From contig CAIUAN010000018.1 in the NCBI GenBank assembly GCA_903897145.1, positions 114,889 to 178,888 on the forward strand: a DNA stretch of 64,000 bases, read 5' to 3'. A program made the position numbers and the translations under genes. The notes below the pieces were generated by a model that had not been told where the DNA came from, ran no database searches, and worked only from the letters and a program-made list of their open reading frames with translations. The DNA is from an uncultured Bacteroidia bacterium. GTDB lineage: Bacteria; Bacteroidota; Bacteroidia; Bacteroidales; Prolixibacteraceae. Positions 1 through 28,921 of the stretch are shown here, piece after piece. How positions within the stretch are numbered: the first letter of the stretch is position 1; every line of letters starts with the position of its first letter.

Positions 1-135
1 TTCCTATCGTAGACGGTTTTTTTACAATGAGGCACAACTCGTTTATAGGTCTGTTGAAGTCAGTTGTATGCACCATATTTAGGGTGAATAGGCCTGTAAA
101 GGTGTCATTCTTATTTTAAGGGTGAAAGTAGTGAT
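1..135. other. Left-edge non-coding flank of the recombinase
   Basis: This is the flank 3' of the minus-strand recombinase, and no gene is visible in it. The octamer AGGGTGAA occurs twice (81-88 and 119-126), 38 bases apart in direct orientation. Recombinase target sites often contain short repeats, but these lack the inverted symmetry of a Xer or att core, so I do not call an attachment site. The region is cut by the window edge. Confidence 0.4.
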
Positions 136-1092
136 TTATTTGTACAAATCATCAAACGGAGACCTGATCTTCTGTATACTCTTCTCCGTTACATGCGTGT
201 ATATTTCGGTCGTCTTGCTGCTTCTGTGACCTAATAATTCCTGAATATACCTTAAATCCGTACCCGACTCTAATAAATGGGTGGCATACGAATGCCGAAG
301 CCAATGTAACGTTACCGGCTTCGATATCCTCGCCTTCCGAAGCGCTATCTTTAAAACACTCTGGATGCTTTTTTCACTATACTGCTCACCCGGATACTGC
401 CCCTCAAATAACCAAACCCTAGGCCGGTAATACCGATAGTATTCCCTCAAAAGCTCAATTAGATTGTCGGAAATAGGCACCACCCGGTCTTTTCTCCCCT
501 TCCCATTAATTATTAATAATAAATGTCGCTTAGAATCGATGTGCACTGGCCTTAAATTTAATAGCTCACCTCGTCTCAACCCACAAGCATAGATTACTGT
601 TAACATCATCCGATGCTTCATGTTTGTTGAGGCCTTTAAAATTAGTCCAACTTCCTCCTTGCTCAGCACGTTCGGTAGCTTGTGCTCATGACGTGGACGA
701 TCTAAATGCTCGGTTATCAATAAGGACCCTCGGATAGTTTTGAAAAATAACTTTGCTGCATTTATTGCCTGGTTCTGGTACGAAAAACTTAGATTCCGAG
801 GAATCATGTATGAATTAACAAATTGCCGCATGTCATTATTCGTCGCTTCTGAACTAGTCTTTGGCTTGATAAACCTAAGAAATGTTGTGATCGCCATGAT
901 ATACGTCTTCACCGTAGAGTCACTATATCTCTTTTGCTCCATCCATTGCTTAAATGTTGCGATTTCCTGAAGAGTGTCAAAATCTAATGTGGGCAAGGAA
1001 TGACTAACTGCTAGGTTTTTGGGTTCTTCATTTGATGAAGAATCAAGCATCGTATTAACCAATTCTTTTGACTTGATTCTCAGAGTTGCCAT
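136..1092 (-). CDS. Solitary tyrosine recombinase/integrase (XerC/D-like)
   Basis: This 318-residue protein belongs to the phage-integrase (tyrosine recombinase) family and would cut and rejoin DNA through a 3'-phosphotyrosine intermediate. An N-terminal SAM-like core-binding domain (about residues 45-125) is followed by the catalytic domain. The full catalytic set is visible: Arg in CGLRRGE, Lys in GKGRKDR, His/Arg in HWLRHSYATH, His in LLGHRSS and Tyr in IYTHV, so the enzyme is probably active. It lacks the extra helix that marks integron IntI proteins. The family is known in Bacteroidota as stand-alone genes and as partners of some IS91-like elements. No transposase, phage gene or tRNA target is visible here, so the substrate is unknown. 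It is divergent from the ilv operon. Family certain, role unknown. Confidence 0.9.
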   Translation of the reverse strand: MATLRIKSKELVNTMLDSSSNEEPKNLAVSHSLPTLDFDTLQEIATFKQWMEQKRYSDSTVKTYIMAITTFLRFIKPKTSSEATNNDMRQFVNSYMIPRNLSFSYQNQAINAAKLFFKTIRGSLLITEHLDRPRHEHKLPNVLSKEEVGLILKASTNMKHRMMLTVIYACGLRRGELLNLRPVHIDSKRHLLLIINGKGRKDRVVPISDNLIELLREYYRYYRPRVWLFEGQYPGEQYSEKSIQSVLKIALRKARISKPVTLHWLRHSYATHLLESGTDLRYIQELLGHRSSKTTEIYTHVTEKSIQKIRSPFDDLYK

Positions 1093-1476
1093 CTATTGAA
1101 AGTTGAATTCTTGTGACCTACTCACTGAGCGGCGAACCTGAACTCAGTTAAAAGTCTGTACAATAGCTAGTTGATTAGATCTTGTTGGGCAATTGATTCC
1201 GTTGTGCTTCGACTTTTATTGTTGAGGTTTTAGTCCCTTGATTAGCTGATTACTTAAACCTATTAAATATACCACTTTAAAAACTCGAAATTCTCAAATA
1301 ATAGCAAAATGATTAAATAGATGTCGAATTGACTGAAAAAAATCAAAATTGCTTACGAATTTATTTTGCGGTCAGAATATTATTCTTAATTTTGTCGTCA
1401 AGTTTAGAATTAACACACTTAAAAAGCGTTGTGATTGAACAAAATAAACTTGATTATCGTTATCTGTTAAAAAAGA
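1093..1476. other. Intergenic region between recombinase and ilv leader
   Basis: A 384-base AT-rich stretch between divergent genes with no protein gene. Its right part carries the candidate ilv promoter (1365-1394), and the transcribed leader would begin near 1400. The left two thirds hold no clear promoter for the recombinase in the TAnnTTTG form and no strong hairpin that I can see. Confidence 0.5.
1365..1394 (+). promoter_or_regulatory. Candidate promoter of the ilv-leu operon
   Basis: A -7 element TAATTTTG (1387-1394) matches the Bacteroidota consensus TAnnTTTG. A TTTG (1365-1368) lies 18 bases upstream, close to the usual 19-21 spacing of the -33 box. Transcription would start near 1400, leaving about 75 bases before the leader peptide. 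The match is seen directly; its activity is inferred. Confidence 0.55.
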
Positions 1477-1542
1477 ATGAAAAACATACTTTCACATAAC
1501 CTTCTACTCGTGGTCATCCTAATTCTCGTCTATCCAGGCTGA
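1477..1542 (+). CDS. ilvL: Branched-chain leader peptide (ilvL-like)
   Basis: A 21-codon open frame, too short for ordinary gene callers, sits 88 bases upstream of ilvD. Codons 9-18 are ten consecutive branched-chain codons reading LLLVVILILV, and further Ile and Leu codons occur at positions 4 and 5. The frame ends with TGA at 1540-1542. Such a run directly before a dihydroxy-acid dehydratase gene, followed by mutually exclusive RNA hairpins, is the hallmark of ribosome-mediated attenuation of ilv/leu operons, best known in enterobacteria. The product would have no function of its own; its translation speed reports the level of charged Leu, Val and Ile tRNA. The symbol is used by analogy of role, not homology. 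Confidence 0.88.
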   Translation: MKNILSHNLLLVVILILVYPG

Positions 1543-1587
1543 GGAAGGTTTACTATTTGTATGATGAAACATATAAAAGCCTTTCTC
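1498..1587 (+). promoter_or_regulatory. Attenuator: protector (1:2) and antiterminator (2:3) hairpins
   Basis: Three segments can pair in alternative ways. Segment 1 (1498-1509, AACCTTC then CTC after a two-base bulge) pairs with segment 2 (1541-1550, GAGGAAGGTT) over 10 base pairs. Segment 2 (1541-1551) can instead pair without interruption over 11 base pairs, two of them G-U, with segment 3 (1577-1587), which is the 5' arm of the terminator. A ribosome stalled in the Leu/Val/Ile run would cover segment 1 and free segment 2 to sequester segment 3, allowing read-through. A ribosome at the stop codon (1540-1542) would cover segment 2 and let the terminator form. Without translation, hairpin 1:2 also favours termination. 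The pairings are seen in the sequence; the mechanism is inferred from the classic model. Confidence 0.82.
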
Positions 1588-1610
1588 AAAACCGAGAAGG
1601 GCTTTTTTTT
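1575..1610 (+). terminator. Intrinsic attenuator terminator upstream of ilvD
   Basis: A 13-base-pair stem (1575-1587 with 1594-1606, one G-U pair) closes a six-base loop, and the following T run extends to 1610. It lies between the leader peptide and ilvD on the coding strand, so it must be regulated to allow expression of the operon. It is segment 3:4 of the attenuator. Confidence 0.9.
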
Positions 1611-1629
1611 AAATTGAAATTTTAAGACT

Positions 1630-3462
1630 ATGAAGTTTAATCTTAGAAGCGAAACAACAACAATGGGTCGTCGAATGGCAGGGGCTCGTAGCCTCTGGAG
1701 AGCTAATGGAATGAAAGAAGAACATTTCGGGAAACCTCTAATCGCCATCGTTAACTCCTTTACTCAATTTGTACCCGGTCATGCCCATTTGCATGATATC
1801 GGACAAATGGTGAAGGGTCTAATCGAGAAAGAGGGTTGCTTCGCAGCCGAATTTAATACCATCGCCATCGATGACGGTATCGCCATGGGTCACGATGGGA
1901 TGCTATACTCGCTTCCATCACGCGACCTGATCGCCGATAGCGTCGAATATATGATCAATGGTCATAAAGCCGATGCGATGATTTGCATCTCGAACTGCGA
2001 CAAGATAACTCCGGGCATGCTGATGGCTGCCATGCGACTTAACATCCCTTGTATCTTCGTCTCGGGTGGTCCGATGGAAGCTGGCGTAGTCGATGGTAAA
2101 AAATACGACCTTGTCGATGCAATGGTGATGGCTGCCGATCCTTCGGTAGACGAAAAATTGCTTCTTCAAGTCGAACAAGATGCTTGTCCAACCTGTGGCT
2201 CATGCTCTGGTATGTTCACCGCTAACTCGATGAACTGCCTTACTGAAGCGTTAGGCCTTTCACTTCCCGGTAACGGAACGGTTGTGGCTACACACTCCAA
2301 CAGAAAGAAACTTTTCGAAAAAGCGGCTAAACGCTTAATCGAGATCACTGTTGACTATTATAAAAATGGGAACGAAAGTGTGCTGCCTCGTGCAATCGCT
2401 TCTCGCGCTGCCTTTATGAACTCCATGACACTCGATATCGCGATGGGCGGATCAACCAATACGGTGTTGCATATGTTGGCCGTCGCTCATGAAGCGGGCG
2501 TCAACTTTACCATGAAAGATATTGATAACTTATCGAGAAAAGTTCCTTGTATCTGCAAGGTATCTCCTAACTCTCACTACCACATCCAAGATGTAAATCG
2601 CGCTGGTGGTATCATGGGTATCTTGGGGGAACTCGAAAGAGGCGGGCTACTTGACACTTCGGTGTCGCGTGTGACTGAAGGGACACTTGGTGAGGCTATT
2701 AAAGCTTGGGATCTTCTTCGCTCTACCGCAGTGGATGATGCTAAAAATGTATATGGTTCGGCCCCTGGAAATATTGGTCGAAATTTAGTGATGGGTTCTC
2801 AAAGTGCAATCTTTGCTGAATTTGATCTTGATCGTGAGAAAGGGTGTATCCGTAGTGTGGAGAATGCCTATACCAAAGAGGGTGGTCTTGCTATTCTTTA
2901 TGGCAATATTGCCCGTAAAGGGTGCATTGTTAAAACGGCAGGTGTTGATCCTTCGGTATTTCAATTTAGTGGTGTAGCGCGAGTCTATGAGTCGCAAGAT
3001 GATGCCTGTGAAGGGATCCTTAAACGCCAAGTTAAAGCTGGAGAGGTGGTGATCATCCGTTACGAAGGTCCGAAAGGTGGACCAGGAATGCAGGAGATGC
3101 TTTATCCAACTTCTTATCTTAAAGCTTCAAAGCTTGATAAGGTGTGTGCGTTACTTACCGACGGACGATTCTCTGGAGGGACTTCAGGGTTGTCAATTGG
3201 TCACGTGTCTCCTGAAGCAGCAGCTGGAGGAGAGATCGCACTTGTTCAAGATGGCGATCGCATTGACATTGATATTTCACAACGTAAAATAGAATTAATC
3301 ATCTCAGATCAAGAGCTGGAAGCACGTAAGAAAGCAGAAGAGGCGAGAGGTAAGATGGCTTATCAGCCTGCAAATAGAACTAGAATAATCAGCAAAGCCT
3401 TAAAAGCTTATGCTAGCCTTGTGGCTTCGGCAGATATGGGTGCAGTACGTATTATAGACTAA
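1630..3462 (+). CDS. ilvD: Dihydroxy-acid dehydratase
   Basis: Dehydrates 2,3-dihydroxy-isovalerate and 2,3-dihydroxy-3-methylvalerate to the keto-acids of valine and isoleucine, in the cytoplasm. At 610 residues it matches the length of E. coli IlvD (616) and resembles it closely throughout. Iron-sulfur and metal motifs are visible: NCDKITPG with Cys123 and Lys125, [12 protein letters not shown] with Cys186, Cys189 and Cys192, and the Asp81-Asp82 pair in [10 protein letters not shown]. The segment FTQFVPGH near residue 45 is as in the enterobacterial enzyme. The ATG lies 20 bases after the attenuator's T run. It is the first structural gene of the operon, with ilvB starting 15 bases downstream. 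Confidence 0.97.
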
Positions 3463-3477
3463 ATAATTTCAGAAGAT

Positions 3478-5205
3478 ATGACAACAAGTTCAAACGACAA
3501 AACAACAGAGATTACTGGTTCAGAAGCGGTAATTCGCTCGCTGATCGCTGAAGGCGTAGACCTGGTTTGGGGCTATCCTGGTGGTGCGATCATGCCAATA
3601 TATGATGCTTTATTTGATTATCAAGATCAGCTAAGACATGTGCTTGCGCGTCATGAGCAAGGTGCTATTCATGCCGCTCAAGGGTATGCGCGAGTAACTG
3701 GTAAAGTGGGTGTTTGTATGGCGACTTCAGGTCCAGGTGCAACAAATCTAGTAACCGGCATTGCAGATGCGTTAATCGATTCAACACCATTGGTTTGTAT
3801 TACAGGACAGGTAATCTCAAGCTTATTGGGAACCGATGCGTTTCAAGAGTCTGATGTGATCGGTATTACTATGCCAATCACGAAGTGGAATTATCAAGTT
3901 ACGTGCGCCGAAGAGATTCCTGAAGCCATTGCTAAGGCATTTCATATTGCATCAACTGGACGACCAGGACCAGTGCTTTTAGATATCACTAAAGATGCTC
4001 AGTTTTCAAAACTGAACTATTCATACCAGAAATGTACCAAGATTCGTTCGTATGTTCCTGAATATCCATCTGATAAAATTGCGATTGCCAAGGCTGCGCA
4101 AATGATCAACCAAGCGAAGAAACCTTTCTTGCTTTATGGTCAAGGTGTAATGCTTTCAAGCGGCGAGCAAGAATTGATCAAGTTCTTGGAGAAATCTGGT
4201 ATTCCAGCCGCTGGAACCTTGTTAGGTTTATCCGCAATTCCAACCGATCATCCCAACAATATGGGTATGTTGGGAATGCATGGAAACTATGGTCCGAACA
4301 TTAAGACCAATGCTTGTGATGTATTGATTGCTGTCGGTATGCGTTTCGATGACCGTGTAACGGGTAATACTCAGACTTATGCTAAACAGGCTAAGATCAT
4401 TCATATTGAGATTGATCCAGCCGAAATAGATAAAAATATTAAAACCGATGTGGCTGTCATTGGTGATGCTAAGCATACGTTAGCTCTCCTTTATGATCTA
4501 GTCGAGAAGAAGCAATATCCAGAATGGTTAGCTGAATTTAAAGCTGCGGATGAGATCGAAAACAGAAAAGTTGTAAATGCTGAACTGAATCCAACAAAGC
4601 CTGGTTTAACCATGGCTGAAGTGGTTCGCATGACTGCTGATATTACCAAGGATAATGCAATTGTCATTACCGATGTGGGTCAAAATCAAATGGCTGCTGC
4701 TCGTTATTCTAAGTTTGTGGGTTCTCGCTCATGGGTGACCTCTGGTGGACTTGGAACGATGGGTTTTGGTCTTCCTGCAGCGATGGGTGCTGCCATGGGT
4801 GCACCTGACCGCGATATTGTTATCTTTACCGGCGATGGTGGAATGCAAATGACCCTTCAAGAGTTGGGTACCATTGCACAAGAAAATTTAGCTGTTAAAA
4901 CAGTCATTTTGAATAACCATTTCTTGGGAATGGTTCGTCAATGGCAAGAGCTGTTTTTCGAAAAAAGATATTCATTCACAGAGATCTTAAGTCCTGATTT
5001 CGTTAAGGTTGCAGATGCTTATGGTATCCCTGGGGCTGTAGTTCACACCCGCGAGGAACTTGAACCTGCCATGAGGAAGATGATCGCTCATAAAGGACCA
5101 TACTTACTTGAGGTAATGATCGAGAAAGAGGATAATATCTTCCCGATGGTACCGGCAGGAAAATCAGTTGCAGAGATCATTTTAAGCTCTGATGAGTTGA
5201 AATAA
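3478..5205 (+). CDS. ilvB: Acetolactate synthase large (catalytic) subunit
   Basis: Condenses two pyruvates to acetolactate (valine/leucine route), or pyruvate and 2-oxobutyrate to acetohydroxybutyrate (isoleucine route), using thiamine diphosphate. The 575-residue protein has the expected N-terminal TPP-binding domain with catalytic Glu60 in [10 protein letters not shown], a central FAD-type domain, and the C-terminal TPP/Mg motif running from GDGG (about residue 453) to NNHFLGM (about residue 480). It is followed 36 bases later by the regulatory subunit gene. No anomalies are seen. Confidence 0.97.
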
Positions 5206-5241
5206 GTGTTTTCGAATCAGGAATAACTAAAAAATAGTACG

Positions 5242-5799
5242 ATGAAACAAGAATATATTATCACAGCCTACAGCGAAAACCATATTGGTTTGCTTAATCG
5301 GATTACCATTATCTTTACACGTCGTAAAGTGAATATTGAGAGCTTAACTGTTTCTGAATCTGCGTTAAAAGGGATCAGTAAATTTACAATCGTTGTCAAT
5401 GAAACAACCGATAAGGTGATTAACATTGTGAAGCAAATCGACAAGCAGATTGAGGTACTTAAGGCATTTTACAACACTGACGATGAGATGATCTCTCAAG
5501 AGATTGCCCTTTATAAAGTTTCGACTAGTGCTTTGATGGAGAGTGATCAGATTGAGAAACTTATCCGCTCACACAATGCTCGTATCCTAGAGATCACTAA
5601 AGAATATACCGTCATTGAAAAGACTGGGCATAAAGAAGAGACGCAAGAGCTTTTCGAAGGTCTTAACTCATTTGGCGTTTTGCAATTTATCCGTTCGGGA
5701 AGAATCGCAATCACTCGCTCTCCGATCGAACGTTTATCTGAATTCTTAAAGGAGCGCGACTCGCTTTTTGATGCGATCGAAGCGAAAAAAAATAGTTAA
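5242..5799 (+). CDS. ilvN: Acetolactate synthase small (regulatory) subunit
   Basis: The 185-residue regulatory partner of IlvB. The N-terminal ACT domain (about residues 1-75) begins with the family-typical pattern of a short strand, then [10 protein letters not shown] and the RRKVNIESL segment. It is followed by the C-terminal domain that contacts the catalytic subunit. ACT domains of this family bind valine for feedback inhibition; that is family knowledge and not shown by the sequence. The length is typical of the long IlvN/IlvH type rather than the short E. coli IlvN or IlvM. It is encoded in the operon immediately after ilvB. Confidence 0.95.
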
Positions 5800-5843
5800 T
5801 TGGCCTTATTGTAGGGCTTACAAATAGATTAAAATTAGTAGTT

Positions 5844-7364
5844 ATGGATAATAATCGTGTATTTATTTTCGATACCACCTTACGCGACGGCGAGCAGGTT
5901 CCAGGTTGTCAGTTGAATACTATCGAGAAGGTTGAAGTGGCAAAGGTATTGGAGCAATTGGGCGTTGATGTGATTGAAGCAGGATTCCCAATATCTAGTC
6001 CAGGTGATTTTAAGTCCGTTGTGGAAATATCGAAGGCTGTAACTTGGCCGGTGATCTGCGCACTAACTCGTGCTGTAGAGAAAGATATTGATGTAGCTGC
6101 TGAATCCCTGAAATATGCCAAACGCGGTCGTATCCATACCGGTATTGGTACATCGCCGTATCATATCCAATCGAAATTTAATTCGAATCCCGATGCAATT
6201 ATTGAGCGTGCTATTGCTGCCGTAAAATATGCGAAGAAATATGTCGAGGATGTAGAGTTTTACGCTGAAGATGCTGGTCGTTCTGATAATGTGTATTTAG
6301 CACGTGTAGTTGAAGCCGTTATTAAAGCTGGAGCTACCGTGATAAATATTCCAGATACTACTGGTTATTGTTTGCCAAGTCAATATGGTGAAAAGATCAA
6401 ATTCCTAATGGAAAATGTTCCTAATATCCACAAAGCGATCCTCTCGACTCACTGTCATAACGATTTAGGTATGGCAACTGCGAACTCTATTGCTGGGGTT
6501 ATGAATGGAGCTCGCCAGGTGGAGGTAACCATCAATGGTATCGGTGAGCGTGCAGGAAATACAGCACTCGAAGAGGTTGTGATGATCCTTCGCTCTCATA
6601 AAGAGCTTGATTTACATACGAATATCAATTCAAAAAATATTTATAAAACTAGTCGACTAATCTCAAGTTTGATGAATATGCCCGTGCAGGCTAACAAGGC
6701 CATCGTTGGTCGTAATGCTTTTGCACATTCTAGTGGCATTCATCAGGATGGTGTCTTGAAAAATCGTGAGAACTACGAAATCATCGATCCAGTTGAGGTT
6801 GGAATTAGTGAGTCAACGATTGTTTTAACGGCCCGTAGTGGTCGTGCAGCACTTAAGCATCGTCTTGAAATATTAGGTGTTAAACTTGAGAAGGAAAAGT
6901 TAGAAGAAGTTTATGCAGATTTCTTAGCTTTGGCGGACAAGAAAAAAGACATCAAAGAGGATGATTTATTAGTCCTTGTAGGTGATCTTGGCAGGGGTGA
7001 CCGTCGTATTAAACTTGATTTCCTTCAGGTAGTTACGGGCAAAAATCTTGTCCCAATGGCTACCGTTAGTCTGGATATCGCCGGAGAGAAATTCTCGGCT
7101 ACTGAATCAGGAAATGGGCCAATTGACGCCTCTATAAAGGCTGTTAAGAGCATCATTCACCGTAAAGTTAATCTGCAGGAGTTTCTAATTCAGGCGATCA
7201 ACAAGGGTAGTGACGATATTGGGAAGGTGCATATGCAAGTTGAATTTGATGACAATATTTTCAACGGATTTGGTGCCAACACCGATATTATTACCGCTTC
7301 TGTAGAGGCTTTTATTGATGCGATCAATAAAATTGGAAATGCGGAGAAAGCTGCTGCTAAGTGA
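5844..7364 (+). CDS. leuA: 2-isopropylmalate synthase
   Basis: Condenses acetyl-CoA with 2-oxoisovalerate, the first committed step of leucine synthesis. The 506-residue protein has the HMGL-like TIM barrel with [11 protein letters not shown] near residue 11 and the metal-binding [11 protein letters not shown] (HxH near residues 203-205). The NGIGERAGN motif and the linker follow, and the C-terminal LeuA dimer/allosteric domain covers about residues 380-500 with the GNGPIDAS motif. All of these are typical of LeuA rather than homocitrate synthase. It is one of two LeuA-like genes in this operon; the other lies between leuD and leuB. Confidence 0.95.
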
Positions 7365-7415
7365 TTAGCTAAGAATTGAAATGACATCTAAATAATAATC
7401 TTAATTATATTCATT

Positions 7416-8813
7416 TTGGAACCAAAAACACTTTTTGATAAAATCTGGGACGCCCACATTGTTAAGCAGGTGAAAGACGGACCTGATGTACTTTATATTG
7501 ATAGACACTTTATCCATGAGGTAACTAGTCCAGTTGCTTTTTTAGGTTTGAAAAACCGTGGCATGAAGGTGTATAGTCCCAAAAATACTATTGCAACGCC
7601 CGACCATAACGTACCAACGATCAATCAGCATCTTCCGATTAAAGAAGAGCTTTCGCGTGTGCAGGTTGATGCTTTAAAAGCAAATTGTGCCGCTAACGGC
7701 ATCGAATTATATGGTTTAGATCATAAATATCACGGTATCGTTCATATCATTGGTCCTGAGCTTGGGATTACCCAGCCGGGCATGACCATTGTTTGTGGCG
7801 ATAGTCATACCTCTACGCATGGTGCTTTTGGTAGCATCGCTTTTGGCATTGGAACAAGTGAAGTGGAGATGGTTTTTGCGAGCCAGTGTATCCTTCAGCC
7901 GAAACCTAAGAAAATGCGTATCAATGTAGAAGGTGTCTTGCAAAAAGACGTTACTGCAAAAGATATTGCACTTTATTTTATCTCACAGATCTCTACTTCA
8001 GGTGGTACTGGTCATTTTATTGAATTTGCTGGTTCTGCTATTCGTAGCTTATCTATGGAGGGTCGTATGACACTTTGTAATATGAGTATCGAATGTGGTG
8101 CTCGTGGTGGCATGATCGCTCCTGACGAAACAACATTTGAATACATTCATGGTCGTGAGTTTGCGCCTAAAGGTGCCGACTGGGATCAGAAATTAGCCAC
8201 ATGGAAACAGTTGAAGTCTGATGATAACGCTGTTTTTGATGCTGAATATAATTTTAAAGCCTCTGATATTGAGCCAATGATCACCTATGGTACAAATCCA
8301 GGAATGGGTATCGGTGTGAATGGTACTATCCCTACTGGCCAAGGTCTTACTGGTTCTGATCTGATTACTTTTACGAAGTCTTTAGAGTATATGGGTCTTA
8401 ATCCAGGTGATAAGATCAAAGGTAAAAAGATCGACTATGTCTTTATCGGTAGCTGTACCAACGGACGAATTGAAGACTTTAGACTGTTTGCGAACTTTGT
8501 GAAAGGAAAGCAAAAAGCGGAGTCTGTTACGGCTTGGATCGTTCCGGGTTCTAAAAAAGTGGAGCAACAAATTAGAGAAGAAGGTATTGTTGAGATTTTG
8601 GAAGCTGCTGGATTTGCCTTACGTCAACCTGGCTGTTCAGCTTGTTTAGCCATGAATGACGATAAAGTCCCAGAAGGTAAATATGCTGTTTCGACTTCAA
8701 ATCGTAATTTTGAAGGACGACAAGGACCAGGTGCTCGCACGATGTTAGCCAGTCCATTGATGGTTGCTGCAGCAGCAATTACTGGAGTAGTCTCTGATCC
8801 AAGAGATATTTAA
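7416..8813 (+). CDS. leuC: 3-isopropylmalate dehydratase large subunit
   Basis: With LeuD it isomerises 2-isopropylmalate to 3-isopropylmalate through a [4Fe-4S] cluster, and can usually also act on citramalate. The three cluster cysteines are visible: Cys347 in GSCTNGR, and Cys407 and Cys410 in PGCSACLA. The substrate and catalytic motifs [12 protein letters not shown] and [14 protein letters not shown] are present. At 465 residues it is full length. The start is TTG at 7416: it gives the usual N-terminus [10 protein letters not shown], and no ATG or GTG in frame is close by. It lies 51 bases after leuA. Confidence 0.96.
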
Positions 8814-8855
8814 GAGTTGATTTAAAGTTAATAACGATATTCAAAAATAGAAGAG

Positions 8856-9443
8856 ATGGCAATAGAAAAATTCCAGAAACTGGTCAGCAGCGTTGTTCCA
8901 CTTCCAATCGAAAATGTGGACACCGACCAGATCATTCCTGCTCGCTTTTTAAAAGCAGTGGAACGTAAAGGTTTTGGAGATAATCTTTTCAGAGATTGGC
9001 GCTATAAAAAAGATGGCTCGCCAAATCCTGATTTTGTGATGAATAACGCACGCTTTAGTGGTAAAATTTTAGTTGCAGGAAAAAATTTCGGCAGTGGATC
9101 AAGTCGCGAGCATGCCGCTTGGGCTGTTTATGATGCAGGATTCCGTGTAGTGGTATCTAGCTTCTTCGCTGATATTTTTAAAAGCAATGTGTTAAATAAT
9201 GGCTTACTGCCTGTTCAAGTTTCAGATCAATTTTTAGCTGAAATTTTCGCAACTGTTGAGGCCGATCCAAAAGCACAATTTGAAGTTGATTTGATTGGTC
9301 AAACAATTGTCAATCTAAAGACAAATTCAACCGAGAACTTTGAGATTAATGCTTATAAAAAAGAGTGCTTGTTGAATGGCTATGATGATATTGACTATTT
9401 AATTAGTCTGAAAGCTGAGATTGCGGCATTTGAAAAAGCTTAA
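8856..9443 (+). CDS. leuD: 3-isopropylmalate dehydratase small subunit
   Basis: The swivel-domain partner of LeuC, 195 residues. The family motifs are visible: [19 protein letters not shown] near the N-terminus, and the [16 protein letters not shown] segment that closes over the substrate. It starts 42 bases after leuC and is followed 18 bases later by the LeuA-like gene. Length and sequence are ordinary for the bacterial LeuD family. Confidence 0.96.
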
Positions 9444-9461
9444 TTATTCGTAAATTCATCC

Positions 9462-11003
9462 TTGGAAACAAATACAAAGCATATGATCTATATCATGGAT
9501 ACTACCCTGAGGGATGGGGAACAGACCTCAGGCGTCTCCTTTTCTGAACACGAAAAGCTTAGCATCGCAAAGATTCTGCTCGAAGAGATTCGGATAGACT
9601 TTATTGAGGTGGCATCTGCTCGTGTTTCTGATGGTGAATTGAGAGGTGCTAAAAAGGTTTTAGATTGGGCCAAAGGAGCTGGATACCTTGATCGGGTTGA
9701 GATTCTTGGTTTCGTGGATGGAACAGCTTCATTGGATTGGATTCAAAAAGCAGGCGGAAAGGTGATGAACCTATTGGCCAAAGGCTCTTTGCGACATGTA
9801 ACACAGCAACTAAAGAAAACTCCGGAAGAACATCTTGCAGGGATAAGAAGCTCGTTGCAGCTAGCTGAGAAAATGGGCATTCGGGTAAATATATACCTTG
9901 AAGATTGGTCAAATGGCATGCGTAATTCGCCTGAATATGTTGATTTTATGCTGGAAGGTCTGCGTAAAGAGAAACTTGGTCGAATCATGCTTCCTGATAC
10001 GTTGGGTATTTTGAATCCTACCGAATCGTATACTTACTGTGCTTCAATGATTCAAAAATTTCCTGATCTAAGCTTCGATTTTCATGCCCATAACGATTAC
10101 GACTTAGCTGTTGGTAATGTCGATGCTGCCATTCGTGCTGGCATTAAAACAGTACATACGACCGTTAATGGTCTTGGTGAGCGCGCTGGTAATCCACCAC
10201 TTTCAAGTGTTGTGGCTTTGCTGAACGATCAATTAAAACTTCCAAATTCTATTAACGAAGAGAAATTAAGCTTGATCAGTCGAATTGTTGAGAATTTCTC
10301 AGGGATTCGAATCTCAGGAAACAAACCTATTATTGGCGAAAATGTATTCACACAATGTAGTGGAATCCACGCTGACGGTGATAATAAAGACAACTTATAT
10401 TTTAACGATTTATTGCCAGAGCGATTTGGTCGTATTCGTAAATATGCTTTAGGTAAAACATCTGGTAAGGCTAATATTGCAAAGAATCTTGAGGATCTAG
10501 GTATTAAACTTGATCCTGAAGATCTAGTTCGTGTGACCAATAAGGTTATTGAATTAGGAGACATGAAAGAATCGGTCACTTCAGATGATCTTCCATATAT
10601 CCTTTCGGATGTGTTGAAGAACGAATCGGTTAGTGAGAAAATTAAATTGCATAATTATACTATCCTGCACTCATTGGGCCTTCGTCCGATGGCTACTGTA
10701 GCCCTAGACTTAGATGGTCGTCTTTTCGAAGAGTCTGCTTCTGGCGATGGTCAGTATGATGCATTTATGAATGCTGTTCGTCAGATCTACCAAAATCAAG
10801 ATAAGCAGTTTCCTACATTAGTCGACTATTCGGTGACTATTCCCCCTGGTGGTAGAACCGATGCTTTAGTTGAGACGTTGATTACCTGGGAGTTTGGAAG
10901 AGAATTTAAAACCCGTGGTTTAGATCCAGATCAAACCGCCGCGGCCATTAAAGCAACGATTAAAATGCTTAATATCATTGAAAACGATAGTGCTATTTTT
11001 TAG
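9462..11003 (+). CDS. Second LeuA-like synthase, probable (R)-citramalate synthase
   Basis: A 513-residue HMGL-like acyltransferase paralogous to LeuA. The barrel motifs [11 protein letters not shown] (about residue 14) and FDFHAHNDYDLA with the metal-binding HxH are intact, as are NGLGERAGN and a C-terminal LeuA dimer domain with SGDGQYDA. It differs from LeuA in the substrate-facing segments: TSG instead of VPG after GEQ, and HAHND instead of HCHND. It is also placed between leuD and leuB. With LeuCD and LeuB, a citramalate synthase would make 2-oxobutyrate from pyruvate and acetyl-CoA for isoleucine. No threonine deaminase gene is in the operon, which supports that reading. A second isopropylmalate synthase or a related chain-extending enzyme remains possible. 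The start is TTG at 9462 or ATG at 9483. Confidence 0.7.
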   Translation: METNTKHMIYIMDTTLRDGEQTSGVSFSEHEKLSIAKILLEEIRIDFIEVASARVSDGELRGAKKVLDWAKGAGYLDRVEILGFVDGTASLDWIQKAGGKVMNLLAKGSLRHVTQQLKKTPEEHLAGIRSSLQLAEKMGIRVNIYLEDWSNGMRNSPEYVDFMLEGLRKEKLGRIMLPDTLGILNPTESYTYCASMIQKFPDLSFDFHAHNDYDLAVGNVDAAIRAGIKTVHTTVNGLGERAGNPPLSSVVALLNDQLKLPNSINEEKLSLISRIVENFSGIRISGNKPIIGENVFTQCSGIHADGDNKDNLYFNDLLPERFGRIRKYALGKTSGKANIAKNLEDLGIKLDPEDLVRVTNKVIELGDMKESVTSDDLPYILSDVLKNESVSEKIKLHNYTILHSLGLRPMATVALDLDGRLFEESASGDGQYDAFMNAVRQIYQNQDKQFPTLVDYSVTIPPGGRTDALVETLITWEFGREFKTRGLDPDQTAAAIKATIKMLNIIENDSAIF

Positions 11004-11073
11004 TGTGTTTTCAATCTAAACATAAAACCTGTATAGGTTAAAGTATAAATAGAATATAAATTTATCATAAAGA

Positions 11074-12144
11074 ATGAAGCTTAACATTGCAGTCTTACCC
11101 GGCGATGGAATCGGACCGGAGATTATGGAGCAGGCGCTACGCGTCACGAAATTAATTTGTCAGAAGTTCGGTCATGAGTTAATTACCAAAACAGCTTTGG
11201 TAGGCGCTGTGGCAATTGATGAAGTAGGAAATCCGTATCCGGATACTACTCATGATTTATGTATGAATTCTGATGCGGTCCTTTTTGGAGCTATCGGTCA
11301 TCCTCGTTTTGATAATGACCCATCTGCAAAAGTGCGTCCAGAGCAAGGTTTGCTTGCTATGCGTAAGAAATTGGGTCTTTATGCGAACATTCGTCCTGTC
11401 ATAGTTTTTGATTCTTTATTAGATAAATCACCGCTTAAACTTGATCGTATTCAAGGGGTTGATTTTGTAGCAATCCGCGAGCTTACTGGAGGTATCTACT
11501 TCGGTCAGCCACAAGGTCGTTCTGAAAATGGAGACACTGCTTTCGACTCTTGCGTTTACACCCGCATGGAAGTTGAGCGTATATTAGAGCTAGCTTTTCA
11601 GTTTGCAATGAAACGTAATAAAAGACTTACTGTAGTCGATAAGGCAAACGTACTTGCTACCTCACGTCTATGGCGTCAGATTGCCAAAGAGATGGAACCA
11701 AAATTTCCAGAGGTGACTGTTGATTATATGTTCGTGGATAATGCGGCGATGCAGATCATTCAATGGCCTAAGAAATTTGATGTGATGGTAACTGAGAATA
11801 TGTTTGGTGATATCTTGACCGATGAGGCTAGTGTGATATCTGGATCTATGGGACTTCTTCCATCGGCATCTATTGGTATCCACACTTCCGTATTTGAGCC
11901 TATTCATGGATCATATCCTCAGGCTGCTGGGCTGAATATTGCCAATCCTTGTGCAACAATCCTTTCTGCTGCAATGATGTTCGAATATGCCTTCTCTTTG
12001 ATGGAAGAGGGTGCTTTGATTCGCAAAGCTGTGGAGGCTTCAATTGTAGCTGGTGCGGTAACAGAAGATCTAGCCGATGATAAATCAAAAGCTTTGAGCA
12101 CTTCAGCCGTAGGCGATTGGATCATCGAATATTTAAGCAAATAG
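11074..12144 (+). CDS. leuB: 3-isopropylmalate dehydrogenase
   Basis: NAD-dependent oxidative decarboxylation of 3-isopropylmalate to 2-oxoisocaproate. The 356-residue protein starts with the family pattern [10 protein letters not shown], carries the substrate-binding arginine loop (GLYANIRP), the lysine motif [14 protein letters not shown] and the metal-binding stretch from VDNAAMQI to [14 protein letters not shown], and ends with the nucleotide-binding segment [15 protein letters not shown]. If the preceding gene is a citramalate synthase, LeuB would also act on 3-methylmalate. It lies 70 bases after the LeuA-like gene and 43 before ilvC. Confidence 0.96.
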
Positions 12145-12187
12145 TAATTAAAATAGCGTAAAATCAAATCCTATAAAAAATAATAAA

Positions 12188-13663
12188 ATGGCAAATTATT
12201 TCAATACCTTACCACTTCGTCTTCAATTGGCGCAACTGGGAACTTGCGAATTCATGGATAGTTCGGAGTTTACGGATGGGGTAAAAAAATTAGCAGGTAA
12301 AAAAATTGTAATCATTGGATGTGGAGCTCAAGGGTTACACCAAGGTTTAAACTTACGTGACTCTGGTTTAGATGTCTCTTATACGTTAAGAGCTGAAGCA
12401 ATCAAAGAAAAACGTCAGTCGTATAAAAATGCATCTGAGAACGGATTTAAAGTTGGGACTTATGAGGAGTTTATTCCTACAGCTGACTTATTGATCAATC
12501 TGACTCCAGATAAACAACATACCAGTGTTATCAATGCGGTGATGCCTTTGATGAAAAAAGGGTCTACCTTATCGTATTCTCACGGATTTAATATCGTTGA
12601 AGAGGGGATGCAGGTTCGTAAAGATATTACTGTGATCATGGTTGCTCCAAAATCACCAGGTTCTGAAGTGCGTGCTGAGTATGTTCGTGGCTTCGGTGTT
12701 CCAACACTGATTGCAGTTCATCCTGAAAACGATCCTAACGGTGATGGCTTCGAGATTGCTAAAGCATATTGTGTAGGTACAGGCGGCGACAGGGCAGGGG
12801 TGTTGAAATCATCTTTTGTGGCTGAAGTAAAATCTGACTTGATGGGCGAGCAGACTATCCTTTGTGGTATTCTTCAGACTGGTTCCATCTTATGTTTCGA
12901 TAAGATGATCGAGAAGGGTATTGATGCTGGTTATGCGTCAAAACTTGTTCAGTATGGTTGGGAAGTTGTTACCGAAGCGTTGAAACATGGTGGTATTACC
13001 AACATGATGGATCGTTTATCGAATCCAGCTAAGATCAAAGCGTACGAACTTTCAGAAGAACTAAAAAATATCATGCGTCCTTTGTTCTGGAAACATATGG
13101 ACGATATTATGTCGGGTCATTTCTCTAAAACAATGATGGAAGATTGGGCGAACGACGATAAAAATCTTTTGACTTGGCGTGCTGCAACAGGTGAGACTGC
13201 TTTTGAAAAAACTCCTGCTGCTGAGGTGAAGATCTCAGAGCAAGAATATTTCGATCATGGTACCCTAATGGTTGCTTTCGTTAAGGCTGGTGTTGAGTTA
13301 GCTTTCGAAACGATGACCGAAGCTGGTATCAAAGAAGAATCGGCTTACTATGAGTCGTTACATGAAACTCCGTTGATCGCTAACACCATTGCTCGTAAGA
13401 AATTATTCGAAATGAATCGTGTAATCTCTGATACTGCTGAGTATGGCTGTTATTTATTCGATCATGCGGCTAAGCCTTTACTTGCAGGGTTTATGAAAAA
13501 TATCGATACCAATGTGATTGGTAAAAACTTCAACGCTGGTATCGACGCACATGTTGACAATAAGAGACTTATTCAAATCAACGAAGAGATTCGCTTCCAC
13601 GAAGTAGAGTTGATTGGCCAAGAGTTGCGTGAAGCAATGGACGCCATGAAAGCGATCCTCTAA
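12188..13663 (+). CDS. ilvC: Ketol-acid reductoisomerase, class II (long form)
   Basis: Converts acetolactate or acetohydroxybutyrate to the dihydroxy acids that feed IlvD, using NADPH and Mg. At 491 residues it is exactly the length of E. coli IlvC and shares the long class II architecture. The Rossmann motif is GCGAQG at residues 44-49. It is followed by two knotted domains with the metal-binding motifs [12 protein letters not shown] and the repeat around [10 protein letters not shown]. Placing ilvC last, after leuB, puts the second valine-pathway enzyme at the far end of the transcript, 8.5 kb from ilvD. A strong terminator follows 18 bases after the stop codon. Confidence 0.97.
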
Positions 13664-13680
13664 GGTTATTTCAACCTCAT

Positions 13681-13722
13681 AAAAATAGCCCTGAACATCA
13701 ACTGATGTTCAGGGCTATTTTT
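13681..13722. terminator. Bidirectional terminator between ilvC and batE
   Basis: A perfect 20-base inverted repeat (13681-13700 with 13703-13722) begins with an A run and ends with a T run, so it can work on both strands. It separates the convergent ilv-leu and Bat operons. Confidence 0.93.
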
Positions 13723-13759
13723 ATACCCGCAAATTTGATTTTAAACCCTTTTAAGCTGT

Positions 13760-14533
13760 TTATATCCTGATGACGGATGTTTCCTTGATCCAGCCCTTGT
13801 TGCCGTCAGGAAGACTTATATTGATCCATTCGCCAAGTTTATCGGTTAATTGGATGGTTACTCCTTCGTGAACGATAAATAGCTCTGTTCCCGTCTCGCT
13901 AGGTGAGGATTTAACGTGAACACTTCGGTCGATTACGACTGCCGTATTGTGATGAGTAAGTTTTGAGCTCAGATTAGATCCAAAAGCAAATGTCAGTACA
14001 GAGATCCCAATCGATAGAATAGAGAACCAGAAAGCTAATCGTTTGGAGCGATATGAACTCGATAGCAGGAATAGTCCAAAGAGTGATAGGAATGAGAAAA
14101 AGGTGATCAAGCTCAGTGTTCCCCAGAAATTAATCGACTGCGAACTGATCAATTGTTTCCACCAGCGCATAAACCCTGGCTCAGGAATGGTGACAATATT
14201 GTCGACAATCTGAGTACGTGCAAGGTCTAAGTTATACCGGATATCTTCGTCGTTCGGTGCAAGTTTCTTAGCTCTTTCGTAATTTAAAATAGCATAGGTG
14301 GCATTTCCAGTTTTATAGTAGGCATTGCCAAGATTAAAGTACAGATCAGCCGATTCGAACCCTTGCGCTGTAACATATTGGTATTTCTGAATGGCATTCT
14401 TGTATTTGCCTGCCGTAAATAACTGGTTGGCGGCGGTTATAGAATCTGTTAGGGCAGAAGATTGACCTTTTGAACCCAAGCCGATTACCACCAGCACGAC
14501 AATTAAACCATATTTTTTGAGTAAGTTTTTCAT
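13760..14533 (-). CDS. batE: BatE, TPR and SH3-like exported membrane protein
   Basis: The last gene of the Bat operon, 257 residues. A signal peptide or signal anchor (about residues 1-24) is followed by two or three TPR units (about 30-105; NLGNAYYKTGNATYAILNYERA is one). Two membrane segments follow (about 130-185), with a C-terminal bacterial SH3-like domain to the end. This order is typical of Bacteroidota BatE. Bat proteins have been linked to oxygen tolerance and cell-envelope integrity in Bacteroides and Leptospira; the molecular role is not settled. It starts 34 bases after the batD stop codon. Confidence 0.85.
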   Translation of the reverse strand: MKNLLKKYGLIVVLVVIGLGSKGQSSALTDSITAANQLFTAGKYKNAIQKYQYVTAQGFESADLYFNLGNAYYKTGNATYAILNYERAKKLAPNDEDIRYNLDLARTQIVDNIVTIPEPGFMRWWKQLISSQSINFWGTLSLITFFSFLSLFGLFLLSSSYRSKRLAFWFSILSIGISVLTFAFGSNLSSKLTHHNTAVVIDRSVHVKSSPSETGTELFIVHEGVTIQLTDKLGEWINISLPDGNKGWIKETSVIRI

Positions 14534-14567
14534 TTTACATTTTCTCTTTTCATTTTACCTTGAAATG

Positions 14568-16370
14568 TCAATTGATCTCTTTCTCCATCTGGCTCATCAC
14601 ATCACAAGCCTCTTCATAAATCTCCTGCATCTTCTGATTGGCATCGCCTGGCGCAAACCGGGCAAATTCACAGGTGTCGATGATTTGTATAAATCGAGTT
14701 ACCACTTCTGAGGATGCTTTATGTTTTGAAAGCTCAGCTGCTCCCGATTCTTTGGTTAGGTCTGCAAATGGAATAGACATCTTATCGCTAAGATAGCCCC
14801 AGAAGGCACGTGTCACAGCTTCGTAGAACTTCTCTGTCGATCCGGCTTGAAGGTGTGTATTGGCCTCTTTAAGTCGCTTTAATGCGATCTTGCTTGCTTT
14901 CTTATTCTTTATCCCAGCAACATTTGCATTTTCACGAATCTGCTTTTGATACAGCAGATAAAGTCCCAATAATCCCAAAGCACCAAGCAGGTAAATCAGG
15001 TAAAAACTAAATGATCCAAAGAAAAGGTCCCCTTTCGCTTTAAGTTCGGTGTTTCCTTGTTTGATAAAACGAATATCTTTTCCTAAATATTTAACATCCT
15101 CCTTGGATACTGTGCTGCTGACATTTTTCGATTGTGATCCATCACCTTTTGCAACATGAATCTTAAATTCTTGCGACGATTTAGTTACGTATTTTCCAGC
15201 ACTTGGATCAAAATAGATAAAGTCGACAGGTGGGATCGTGTATTCTCCAGCAAATCGCGGCAGAAAGAGATACTCGAATGAAATATTCCCATTTACACCA
15301 TCTGCAGTAGCATTGAAATTACTTTGCGTCTTTGGATCGTAAACTTCAAAATCAGCTGGTAATTTTAGTTTGGGGGCATTAATAAGTTTGATATTCCCAT
15401 TTCCGTTAACATCCAATTTTAAAGTTATCGCATCATTCTCTTTGACATTAGCTGAAGTTATGGATGAGCGGAGGTCAAATCGACCAACTGCACCTGAGAA
15501 ATTAGCAGGAGCACCTGGTAATGGATTAACCGTAACTGTTATAGGATCGCTAGTAACTGTAGCTTTTACATTGGCGAAATTGTCAAAGAAGTCATCGAAG
15601 AAGCTTTTCGATTGTTTTACCCGTTGTTGAACCACACAGTCGATCTTGACTTTCCCTATGGTTATCGTGCCCGTTTGTTGCGGAAACAGAAGTGTCTTTT
15701 TCAATGTCCCTACGTTGTAAATCTCTCCATTGTAGGATTCACGTTGAAGTGATATCTGCTGTGGTAATACAATGTCTTGCGACCAGAACCCTTCGAAACT
15801 TGGAAGGGTAATATCTTCAAATCCGTTTAGATTAACTTTCGAGTAGATCTTTATCGTCGCCATGGCATGATCACCCTTGTATAGGCTTTTGCGATCTAGG
15901 ATCAGGCGAACAAATAGATCTGATTTAGGCACAGATCCAGGAGAGGCTGTTGGTTGTTCCGTTCCGCCTCCGGTTGGTTTAGCCGAACCCTTAACAACTT
16001 CAATGGTTATGGAATTAGAGGATATGGATTGCCCATTCACTGAAATGGTTGCAGGATTAAGTGTAAATCGACCAGCAGTTTTGGCTTTTAAAACAAATAA
16101 GTAGGAGAACGAAACAGATTGTGAACTAACTCCATTGATAATTTGAAATGAGCTACTTTGAGACGTCGAAGGTCCCATAAGGACGCTGAAATCTGATAAT
16201 TCGGGTAGTTTTAAGTTCTGACCTTGTGCATTTACGGTAAAGGCAAGACGAAATTGTTCGCCTAGCTCAACTATTTTAGGAGCTTCCATGGTGAAATTCA
16301 CCTGTTGTGAAAATCCAGGTATGCTTAGTAATAGAACACAGACTAATAGATAGATATTTTTTAACCTCAT
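14568..16370 (-). CDS. batD: BatD, large exported Ig-like membrane protein
   Basis: A 600-residue protein with a signal peptide (about residues 1-21), a long extracytoplasmic region of immunoglobulin-like strands (about 25-430; the oxygen-tolerance family domain with KAPKI/LPEL-type motifs), one transmembrane helix (about 452-475) and a cytoplasmic basic, helical tail. It is the largest Bat protein and probably the periplasmic interaction platform of the complex. It lies between batC and batE in the usual order, with a 50-base gap from batC. There are no internal breaks. Confidence 0.88.
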   Translation of the reverse strand: MRLKNIYLLVCVLLLSIPGFSQQVNFTMEAPKIVELGEQFRLAFTVNAQGQNLKLPELSDFSVLMGPSTSQSSSFQIINGVSSQSVSFSYLFVLKAKTAGRFTLNPATISVNGQSISSNSITIEVVKGSAKPTGGGTEQPTASPGSVPKSDLFVRLILDRKSLYKGDHAMATIKIYSKVNLNGFEDITLPSFEGFWSQDIVLPQQISLQRESYNGEIYNVGTLKKTLLFPQQTGTITIGKVKIDCVVQQRVKQSKSFFDDFFDNFANVKATVTSDPITVTVNPLPGAPANFSGAVGRFDLRSSITSANVKENDAITLKLDVNGNGNIKLINAPKLKLPADFEVYDPKTQSNFNATADGVNGNISFEYLFLPRFAGEYTIPPVDFIYFDPSAGKYVTKSSQEFKIHVAKGDGSQSKNVSSTVSKEDVKYLGKDIRFIKQGNTELKAKGDLFFGSFSFYLIYLLGALGLLGLYLLYQKQIRENANVAGIKNKKASKIALKRLKEANTHLQAGSTEKFYEAVTRAFWGYLSDKMSIPFADLTKESGAAELSKHKASSEVVTRFIQIIDTCEFARFAPGDANQKMQEIYEEACDVMSQMEKEIN

Positions 16371-28477: not shown

Positions 28478-28540
28478 AAAATTGGTCAAAAAAACAGGGA
28501 AAACAAGTCTAAATCATCAGTGCTCTAACAGGTAAAAAAA

Positions 28541-28916
28541 TCGCAGGCCTGTAAGCCGGGTTCTGTTTTTCATTCTATCATTTATCTAGTACTATTGTCA
28601 CCAATAGTCTCATGCAGCCTACCCCTTATGACTCTTAATCAATTTGCATTGGTCAAAACCAGGGCGGGCAGCCCTGTGTTCCGAGGAACTCATAATATAT
28701 TTGGCCTTACAATCCATGAGGCGTACGGCTAATTATGTTGCCATAACTACCGGTAGGCTCTTACCCTACCTTTTCACCCTTATCCGTCAGTTGACGGACG
28801 GTTATTTTCTGTTACACTACTGCGAACTTACACCCGCCTTCTCGTTAAGAAGCATGGCGCCCTGTATTGCCCGGACTTTCCTCCCCGATAAATCGAGGCG
28901 ATAGAACAGCCTGCGA
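28541..28916 (-). ncRNA. rnpB: RNase P RNA (class A)
   Basis: The catalytic RNA of ribonuclease P, about 376 nucleotides on the minus strand. The universal core is visible: GAGGAAAGTCCGGGC near the 5' end (about 28877-28892) and ACAGAACCCGGCTTAC near the 3' end (about 28551-28566), which together form helix P4. The GGTAAGAGCCTACCGG-type region lies in the middle. The terminal P1 helix pairs GCAGGC with GCCTGC at the two ends. The 5' end is placed from the -7 element at 28922-28929 and may be off by a few bases. Confidence 0.95.
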
Positions 28917-28921
28917 AGCTG

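Follow-up and report, generated by a model that had tools for sequence, protein, structure and literature searches.

A very probable ribosome-mediated attenuator upstream of an ilv/leu gene cluster in a Bacteroidota genome

The ilv/leu locus

The window, the whole stretch of 64,000 nt analysed here, covers positions 114889-178888 of a contig from a 2.8-Mb draft genome with a completeness of 97%. It carries nine ilv/leu genes, all on one strand and separated by intergenic gaps of 15 to 70 nt. They are listed below with the NCBIfam profiles matched by their products.

1630-3462, + strand: ilvD, dihydroxy-acid dehydratase (NF009103 and TIGR00110, above cut-off)
3478-5205, + strand: ilvB, acetolactate synthase large subunit (TIGR00118, above cut-off)
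5242-5799, + strand: ilvN/ilvH, acetolactate synthase small subunit (TIGR00119, above cut-off)
5844-7364, + strand: leuA, 2-isopropylmalate synthase (TIGR00973, above cut-off)
7416-8813, + strand: leuC, isopropylmalate dehydratase large subunit, TTG start as listed (TIGR00170, above cut-off)
8856-9443, + strand: leuD, isopropylmalate dehydratase small subunit (TIGR00171, above cut-off)
9462-11003, + strand: cimA-like, second LeuA-family enzyme, TTG start as listed (best match CimA NF042433, 656 bits, under the cut-off of 950)
11074-12144, + strand: leuB, 3-isopropylmalate dehydrogenase (TIGR00169, above cut-off)
12188-13663, + strand: ilvC, ketol-acid reductoisomerase (NF003557 and TIGR00465, above cut-off)

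The cimA-like protein contains HMGL-like and LeuA_dimer domains and is probably a citramalate synthase, its best match being sub-cut-off. Elsewhere on the - strand, the window encodes a tyrosine recombinase of the Xer/integron-integrase type, under every NCBIfam cut-off, at 136-1092, and an RNase P RNA of bacterial class A at 28536-28917 (233.7 bits).

The preliminary description of this DNA had placed the whole nine-gene operon under the control of an attenuator. Such an element does lie upstream of the cluster; its reach over all nine genes depends on a single transcript, which is suggested by their spacing, by their common orientation and by intergenic gaps free of terminator-like sequences on the + strand. 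Four sites of this kind were found, all within leuA and leuD. One match to a Bacteroidota-type promoter pattern, which may be due to chance, occurs within leuB at 11776-11806.

The region preceding ilvD contains the following features.

1365-1394, + strand: candidate promoter of Bacteroidota type, TTTG, 18 nt, TAATTTTG (pattern match)
1477-1542, + strand: leader peptide ORF of 21 codons, MKNILSHNLLLVVILILVYPG and stop (sequence, chance test, selection test)
1518-1548, + strand: possible 1:2 protector hairpin, interrupted (minimum free energy fold only)
1540-1551, + strand: segment 2, 5' arm of the antiterminator, opening with the UGA stop of the leader (pairing, shuffles, covariation)
1557-1576, + strand: local 7-bp hairpin stacked within the antiterminator, 1557-1563 with 1570-1576 (minimum free energy fold)
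1575-1588, + strand: segment 3, common to antiterminator and terminator (covariation with segments 2 and 4)
1594-1610, + strand: segment 4 (1594-1606) and T run (1603-1610), intrinsic terminator (fold, shuffles, covariation)

The candidate promoter is one of nine matches to the Bacteroidota-type pattern in the window; 4.8 are expected and 5 of 100 shuffles reach nine, which is weak alone. The pattern TTG-N16..24-TAnnTTTG, which we take to be the Bacteroides sigma consensus, occurs no more than 200 nt 5' of the ATG of the leader at 68 of 75 loci, the mean over 50 rounds of shuffling being 3.5 and the maximum 7. Promoters of the sigma-70 type showed no excess in positions 1-14600 (40 versus 35.9 expected from shuffles) and the Bacteroidota-type pattern was used in their place.

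The leader peptide ORF

As the preliminary description had stated, a leader of 21 codons with ten consecutive Leu/Val/Ile codons is present: codons 9-18 read Leu3 Val2 Ile Leu Ile Leu Val. Such a run of ten was absent from all 102,364 ATG-initiated ORFs of 9-45 amino acids in 100 dinucleotide-shuffled windows, where the longest run was nine; of the 697 ORFs of this kind in the real window, one attains ten and the runner-up six. Selection on the leader was estimated from the first 18 codons of 13 distinct leaders of the same genus, two leaders with deletions being excluded. The values obtained were pS 0.302 and pN 0.129 (pN/pS 0.43), and the contrast is sharper in codons 9-18 (pS 0.240 versus pN 0.030). 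In the two other reading frames the tendency is reversed. Judged from these substitution patterns, the leader codons are a coding sequence under frame-specific purifying selection.

Purifying selection on ten hydrophobic residues is also what would be observed if the peptide had a second role as a small protein acting in trans; peTrpL of Sinorhizobium provides a precedent, as described in PMC7298713. Outside the genus, however, the order of L, V and I changes while their density persists, as codon sensing predicts, and an additional role of this sort appears very unlikely. Codon usage in the leaders is biased relative to the ilvD genes of the named loci, with GTC at 0.52 versus 0.16, ATT at 0.73 versus 0.45 and CTA at 0.22 versus 0.03. 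Synonymous codon choice affects the sensitivity of attenuators in theory, and the bias could be partly due to pairing needs.

Terminator and antiterminator

The terminator pairs 1575-1587 with 1594-1606 in a stem of 13 base pairs closed by a loop of 6 nt, with T residues at 1603-1610, and ilvD begins 19 nt further downstream (1610 to 1630). The antiterminator pairs 1540-1551 with 1577-1588 without interruption, over 11 base pairs or 12 if U1540-A1588 is included, two of them being G-U pairs, and continues into the local hairpin 1557-1563/1570-1576. Both structures had been announced in the preliminary description, and the stretch forming each of them exceeds all of 1000 shuffles in stability. 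Because 1577-1588 overlaps the 5' arm of the terminator, the 2:3 and 3:4 pairings are mutually exclusive. The stop codon had been placed directly before segment 2; instead, UGA (1540-1542) constitutes the first triplet of this segment.

A terminator with a T run would look identical at 1575-1610 if it were a plain or partial terminator following a chance short ORF and devoid of any regulatory role. The neighbouring gene upstream, at 136-1092, nevertheless lies on the opposite strand, and the Leu/Val/Ile run, the frame-specific selection and the covariation of 2:3 described below would be left unaccounted for, which renders this explanation extremely improbable. Metabolite riboswitches and tRNA-binding (T-box) leaders end in a terminator too, and would not involve a sensing ribosome. 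No Rfam family reached its gathering score in the leader, and the whole window yielded just RNase P. A permissive Rfam scan was free of T-box matches, its top matches being PyrR (31.4 bits, cut-off 54) and Bacteroid-trp (25.9 bits, cut-off 49). These negative scans led us to reject a riboswitch or T-box identity as well as membership of Bacteroid-trp. Since the conserved part also contains an ORF with pathway-matched codons, we consider the chances of an RNA switch of this type to be minimal.

Conservation and covariation

The element was scored as conserved when at least 7 of 10 residues were L, V or I, the ORF started with ATG or GTG and a strong terminator followed downstream. Among members of the genus it is present in 18 of the 18 examined, namely the window and 17 relatives, one locus (L088) being cut within the leader by a contig end. 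It was found in 40 of 57 named loci labelled as Bacteroidota versus none of 23 with other labels, these labels being record titles sorted by hand from draft genomes that may be mislabelled. A leader and terminator were lacking by the same criterion in the remaining 17 Bacteroidota-labelled loci, three of which had just 195-224 nt of upstream DNA. A further 50 loci (47 relatives and three of a phylum sample), genus included, contributed 44 occurrences. The phylum sample comprised 247 genomes, 183 of which had a match, and the upstream DNA of 66 further loci (26 + 40) was inspected. In this sample of other families, a leader with at least 6 of 10 L/V/I residues and a strong terminator was encountered in 8 of the 40 loci and in none of the 26; the eight are L164, which starts with TTG, L165, L166, L172, L178, L179, L182 and L183.

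Altogether 94 leader-plus-terminator rows were collected in 85 loci and reduced to 93 by dropping one ORF variant of L092 that shared the terminator of the real one. The 2:3 pairing was matched by at most 10 of 200 shuffles in 79 of these 93 rows, and all counts of geometry, codons, arm swaps and protector pairing given here use these 79 attenuators; as they were chosen by this very threshold at 2:3, the counts are conditional on good 2:3 pairing. Their own 2:3 pairings average -14.1 kcal/mol versus -11.3 kcal/mol when arms are swapped between loci, a value below all 5000 permutations.

Covariation was counted on an alignment of 55 of 67 stretches, near-duplicates and lengths outside 60-100 nt having been removed beforehand; since the 12 stretches left out by hand are mainly divergent, the counts lean towards the main type. 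On these 55 sequences 95.6% of the cells are paired at 2:3 and 99.3% at 3:4, and double changes affect 4 and 5 of the 10 pairs, respectively. Double-change cells amount to 19 for 2:3 (shuffled mean 4.4) and 26 for 3:4 (shuffled mean 5.0), numbers reached by none of 500 shuffles in either case, bearing in mind that the sequences are related and the events not independent. The stricter count of pairs with double changes is reached by 8 of 500 shuffles for 2:3 and by 3 of 500 for 3:4. When the partner is shifted by one to three columns, pairing is reduced to 44-59% (2:3) and 41-70% (3:4). In one column A-T-A is replaced by T-A-T across segments 2, 3 and 4 together in six sequences, a triple covariation. 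These comparative data indicate that both pairings are under selection. The preliminary description had proposed to look in relatives for a kept leader peptide and kept pairings: the former is retained in the members of the genus examined and both 2:3 and 3:4 covary.

Geometry and ribosome position

The 79 attenuators end their leaders with UGA (57), TAA (13) or TAG (9). Relative to the end of the ORF, segment 2 starts 3 to 5 nt upstream in 45 of them, at least 9 nt upstream in 20, one or two nt upstream in 6 and downstream in 8; these starts are taken from the output of the duplex program, which extends them by at most a single unpaired base at the flank. In 46 of the 79, the distance from the start of the last Leu/Val/Ile codon to segment 2 is 11-13 nt, which is approximately the reach of a ribosome.

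Folds of the window's leader were calculated up to 1590 with a mask representing the ribosome. The 2:3 pairing is complete (10.4 expected pairs) with the A site at codons 9, 11, 12, 14, 15 or 17, decreases to 7.5 expected pairs at codon 18 and falls to 0 with the ribosome at the stop. When the ribosome is omitted, 2:3 forms and 1:2 is absent. At equilibrium, the complete leader up to 1612 prefers 3:4 under every mask; the switch must therefore be kinetic and decided during RNA synthesis.

The protector hairpin

The preliminary description had proposed a complete four-segment layout of the enterobacterial type, including a 10-bp protector hairpin as one of several mutually exclusive elements. 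Leader, antiterminator and terminator are all in place and 2:3 does exclude 3:4, segment 3 being part of both, but the 1:2 protector is not supported as a selected feature. Positions 1500-1556 fold best into a hairpin with interruptions, in which 1518-1531 pairs with 1536-1548 and which is equalled or beaten by 159 of 1000 shuffles, and 40 of 100 null leaders built from synonymous codons pair as well at 1:2. Over the 79 attenuators, 1:2 pairing is weakly above such controls, with 19 in the top 10% and a mean rank of 34 of 100. Duplex shuffles, synonymous-codon nulls and window shuffles all being devoid of a convincing signal, we do not claim a protector hairpin.

These results, together with the fold to 1590 that gives 2:3 and no 1:2 without a ribosome, favour an attenuator of three segments with the same ribosome logic and no working protector, in which the antiterminator would be the default and an untranslated leader would consequently mean read-through. 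Against this, at least five expected 1:2 pairs are found in 75 of the 79 attenuators, a count to be read with the nearly equal means of real and null leaders (8.5 and 7.6). Some 1:2 pairing also persists in the full-length fold (2.2 pairs without a ribosome, 7.8 with a ribosome at codons 17-18) and may still form during RNA synthesis. We view the three-segment form as a serious possibility, at somewhat below even confidence. With the protector unsupported, basal termination without leader translation lacks an explanation.

The same platform before other operons

The preliminary description had suggested a covariance search for the segments upstream of ilvD in related genomes. A covariance model of segments 2-4, built without the leader codons, was run on 148 genomes of the order and, under filters that miss weaker matches, found 48 of them at E <= 0.001; nine of the 48, the window's own included, had supplied model sequences. 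Among 29 matching loci examined besides that of the window, 20 precede ilvD, 4 precede leuA, 1 precedes ilvB and 4 precede no gene of the window's operon. Of the last four, one lies before a glutamate synthase gene and the other three resemble it by eye. Seven of the 20 ilvD loci were training sequences, and two encode an IlvD just 34% identical. Sixteen second or third matches of the same genomes were examined and assigned by the next ORF start to leuA (9), ilvD (5) and the gltB-like gene (2). A second copy in the window's genome was found neither by a strict pattern nor by the model with stricter filters. The gene order leuA-leuC-leuD-cimA is conserved in 9 of the 9 leuA loci traced downstream, and leuB in 8.

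The leaders of these two groups of loci differ in composition. The 13 leuA leaders contain 62 Leu, 60 Ile and 8 Val codons, a Val share of 0.05 among the three, versus 310 Leu, 298 Ile and 303 Val (share 0.33) in the 79 ilvD leaders (Mann-Whitney p = 7e-8, relatedness uncorrected). Because the 79 had been picked partly by L/V/I density, the comparison was repeated with 17 model-found ilvD leaders outside the training set, which contain 73 Leu, 51 Ile and 76 Val (share 0.37; p = 5e-6, relatedness uncorrected). One of the 25 model-found ilvD loci (L258) yielded no leader. On this evidence the leader codons track the products of the pathway.

Besides leucine synthesis, LeuCD and LeuB serve the pathway that leads from citramalate to 2-oxobutyrate and on to isoleucine, and cimA is present in these operons. 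None of the seven PALP-family proteins of the window's draft genome, which may be incomplete in this respect, scores over the NCBIfam cut-off for threonine ammonia-lyase; the nearest one (L285) better fits hydroxyaspartate dehydratase, under every cut-off listed. The window's genome likely makes isoleucine via citramalate, with the caveats that the cimA call is sub-cut-off and that ilvA could be missing from the draft. This route would account for the presence of Leu and Ile without Val in the leuA leaders.

We think it more probable than not that a single antiterminator/terminator platform occurs across Bacteroidales and is re-aimed by its leader codons, towards Leu, Val and Ile before ilvD and towards Leu and Ile before leuA-leuCD-cimA, the missing Val reflecting isoleucine synthesis via citramalate, and that some relatives stack two such switches, mostly without cross-pairing. 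If so, leader codons report the wiring of a pathway. The contrast between ilvD and leuA leaders is a natural experiment in favour of both the sensing of codons and isoleucine synthesis via citramalate.

Matches of segments 2-4 were also seen before gltB-like genes. In L245 the gene resembles that of the glutamate synthase large subunit (516 bits, a partial ORF, under the full-length cut-off), and L248, L250, L252, L271 and L275 were assigned by eye, L245 alone being profile-tested. The ORFs ending at segment 2 in these loci have no Glu or Gln run and are not rich in these residues.

Proposed mechanism

The locus combines a leader ORF made of pathway codons, an intrinsic terminator before the first gene and an antiterminator that excludes it, the attributes by which an attenuator is recognized in sequence. 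Conservation, covariation, selection on the leader and leader codons tracking the pathway products make it very probable that the element is a ribosome-mediated transcription attenuator of the ilv/leu cluster. As RNA polymerase moves through the downstream segments, a ribosome would be translating the leader behind it. With ample charged tRNA-Leu, tRNA-Val and tRNA-Ile the ribosome would proceed to the UGA and cover segment 2, in which case 3:4 would pair and transcription would end at the T run near 1610. Should one of these tRNAs be uncharged, the ribosome would stall within codons 9-18 and leave segment 2 free, so that 2:3 would form before segment 4 is made and RNA polymerase would read through into ilvD-ilvB-ilvN-leuA-leuC-leuD-cimA-leuB-ilvC. 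Regulation upstream of the nine-gene cluster through several branched-chain tRNAs, as first proposed, is supported at the sequence level by the conservation, the two-way covariation, the selection on the leader and the pathway-matched leaders.

Relation to known attenuation systems

The ribosome-mediated attenuators of the enterobacterial ilv, leu, his and trp operons form a textbook class. The element described here resembles them by a leader ORF rich in the amino acids of the pathway and by a segment 3 belonging to both antiterminator and terminator; it differs by its UGA located within segment 2, by a protector that is not demonstrable and by its phylum. According to the abstract of Vitreschak 2004, Bacteroidetes/Chlorobi are reportedly among the groups with some attenuation candidates.

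The authors of a 2010 survey knew of leader-peptide systems demonstrated just in Proteobacteria and Actinobacteria, ermC aside, before their own Firmicutes case. In Bacteroidota, Rfam RF01692 (Bacteroid-trp), named in a table of PMC2864571, is a leader-peptide RNA according to its Rfam description. It occurs in 7 of 61 genomes searched, 5 of them above cut-off, the window's genome being without a match, and the seven matches in relatives each carry a short ORF with WWW. This family is related to Trp, whereas the window element is branched-chain. Transcriptomics of Flavobacterium psychrophilum, in the same phylum, provided strong clues of leader-peptide attenuation before amino-acid biosynthesis operons (PMC9723704); the relevant passages of that report name no ilv element or sequence. 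Leader-like short ORFs are mentioned within long 5' UTRs of B. thetaiotaomicron. The preliminary description had considered an attenuator of this kind notable in Bacteroidota. This appraisal fails since RF01692 exists and flavobacterial leader-peptide attenuation has been reported, and many members of the order carry the element itself. It is a well-supported member of a class whose mechanism has long been known and which has precedents in the phylum. Its value lies in being a concrete, testable and well-conserved branched-chain attenuator of Bacteroidota, one to which no Rfam family matches at cut-off in the window.

Tandem switches and other leaders

Eight relatives (L029, L033, L037, L098, L099, L100, L107 and L154) carry two branched-chain leaders in series upstream of ilvD, each with its own terminator and with 20-56 nt between the first terminator and the second leader. 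Their own segment 2 beats the other one for 14 of the 16 segments 3, the exceptions being the first of L098 and of L100. In L098, L099, L100 and L107 the arms read CCATTCT in the first switch and CCTTTCT in the second. Two serial leader ORFs are also described in the Salmonella mgtCBR tandem attenuators (PMC3641672). That system senses ATP and proline, whereas both leaders of the relatives' pairs are branched-chain, and the window has one leader.

A different arrangement was observed in other parts of the phylum, in L115, L116, L121, L122, L173-L176, L192 and L198, where an ORF rich in L and I, frequently about 30 codons long and opening with GTG, lies within about 240 nt upstream of ilvD and in most cases ends about 85-115 nt before it. 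Downstream of the ORF come arms resembling GGTCAATCCC and GGGGTTGACC, without a clear T-run terminator. Nine of these ten loci were scanned upstream of ilvD and none gave an Rfam match. This set perhaps represents a different leader-peptide switch.

Finally, two other operons of the window's genome are preceded by candidate leaders. That of hisG (L226) is MQVLIIHNGHHHLP, a candidate for His followed by a terminator, and that of trpE (L227) is the Trp-rich ORF MTKNKSIWLWWGNTFLC, a candidate for Trp about 290 nt upstream. This genome may make general use of attenuation.
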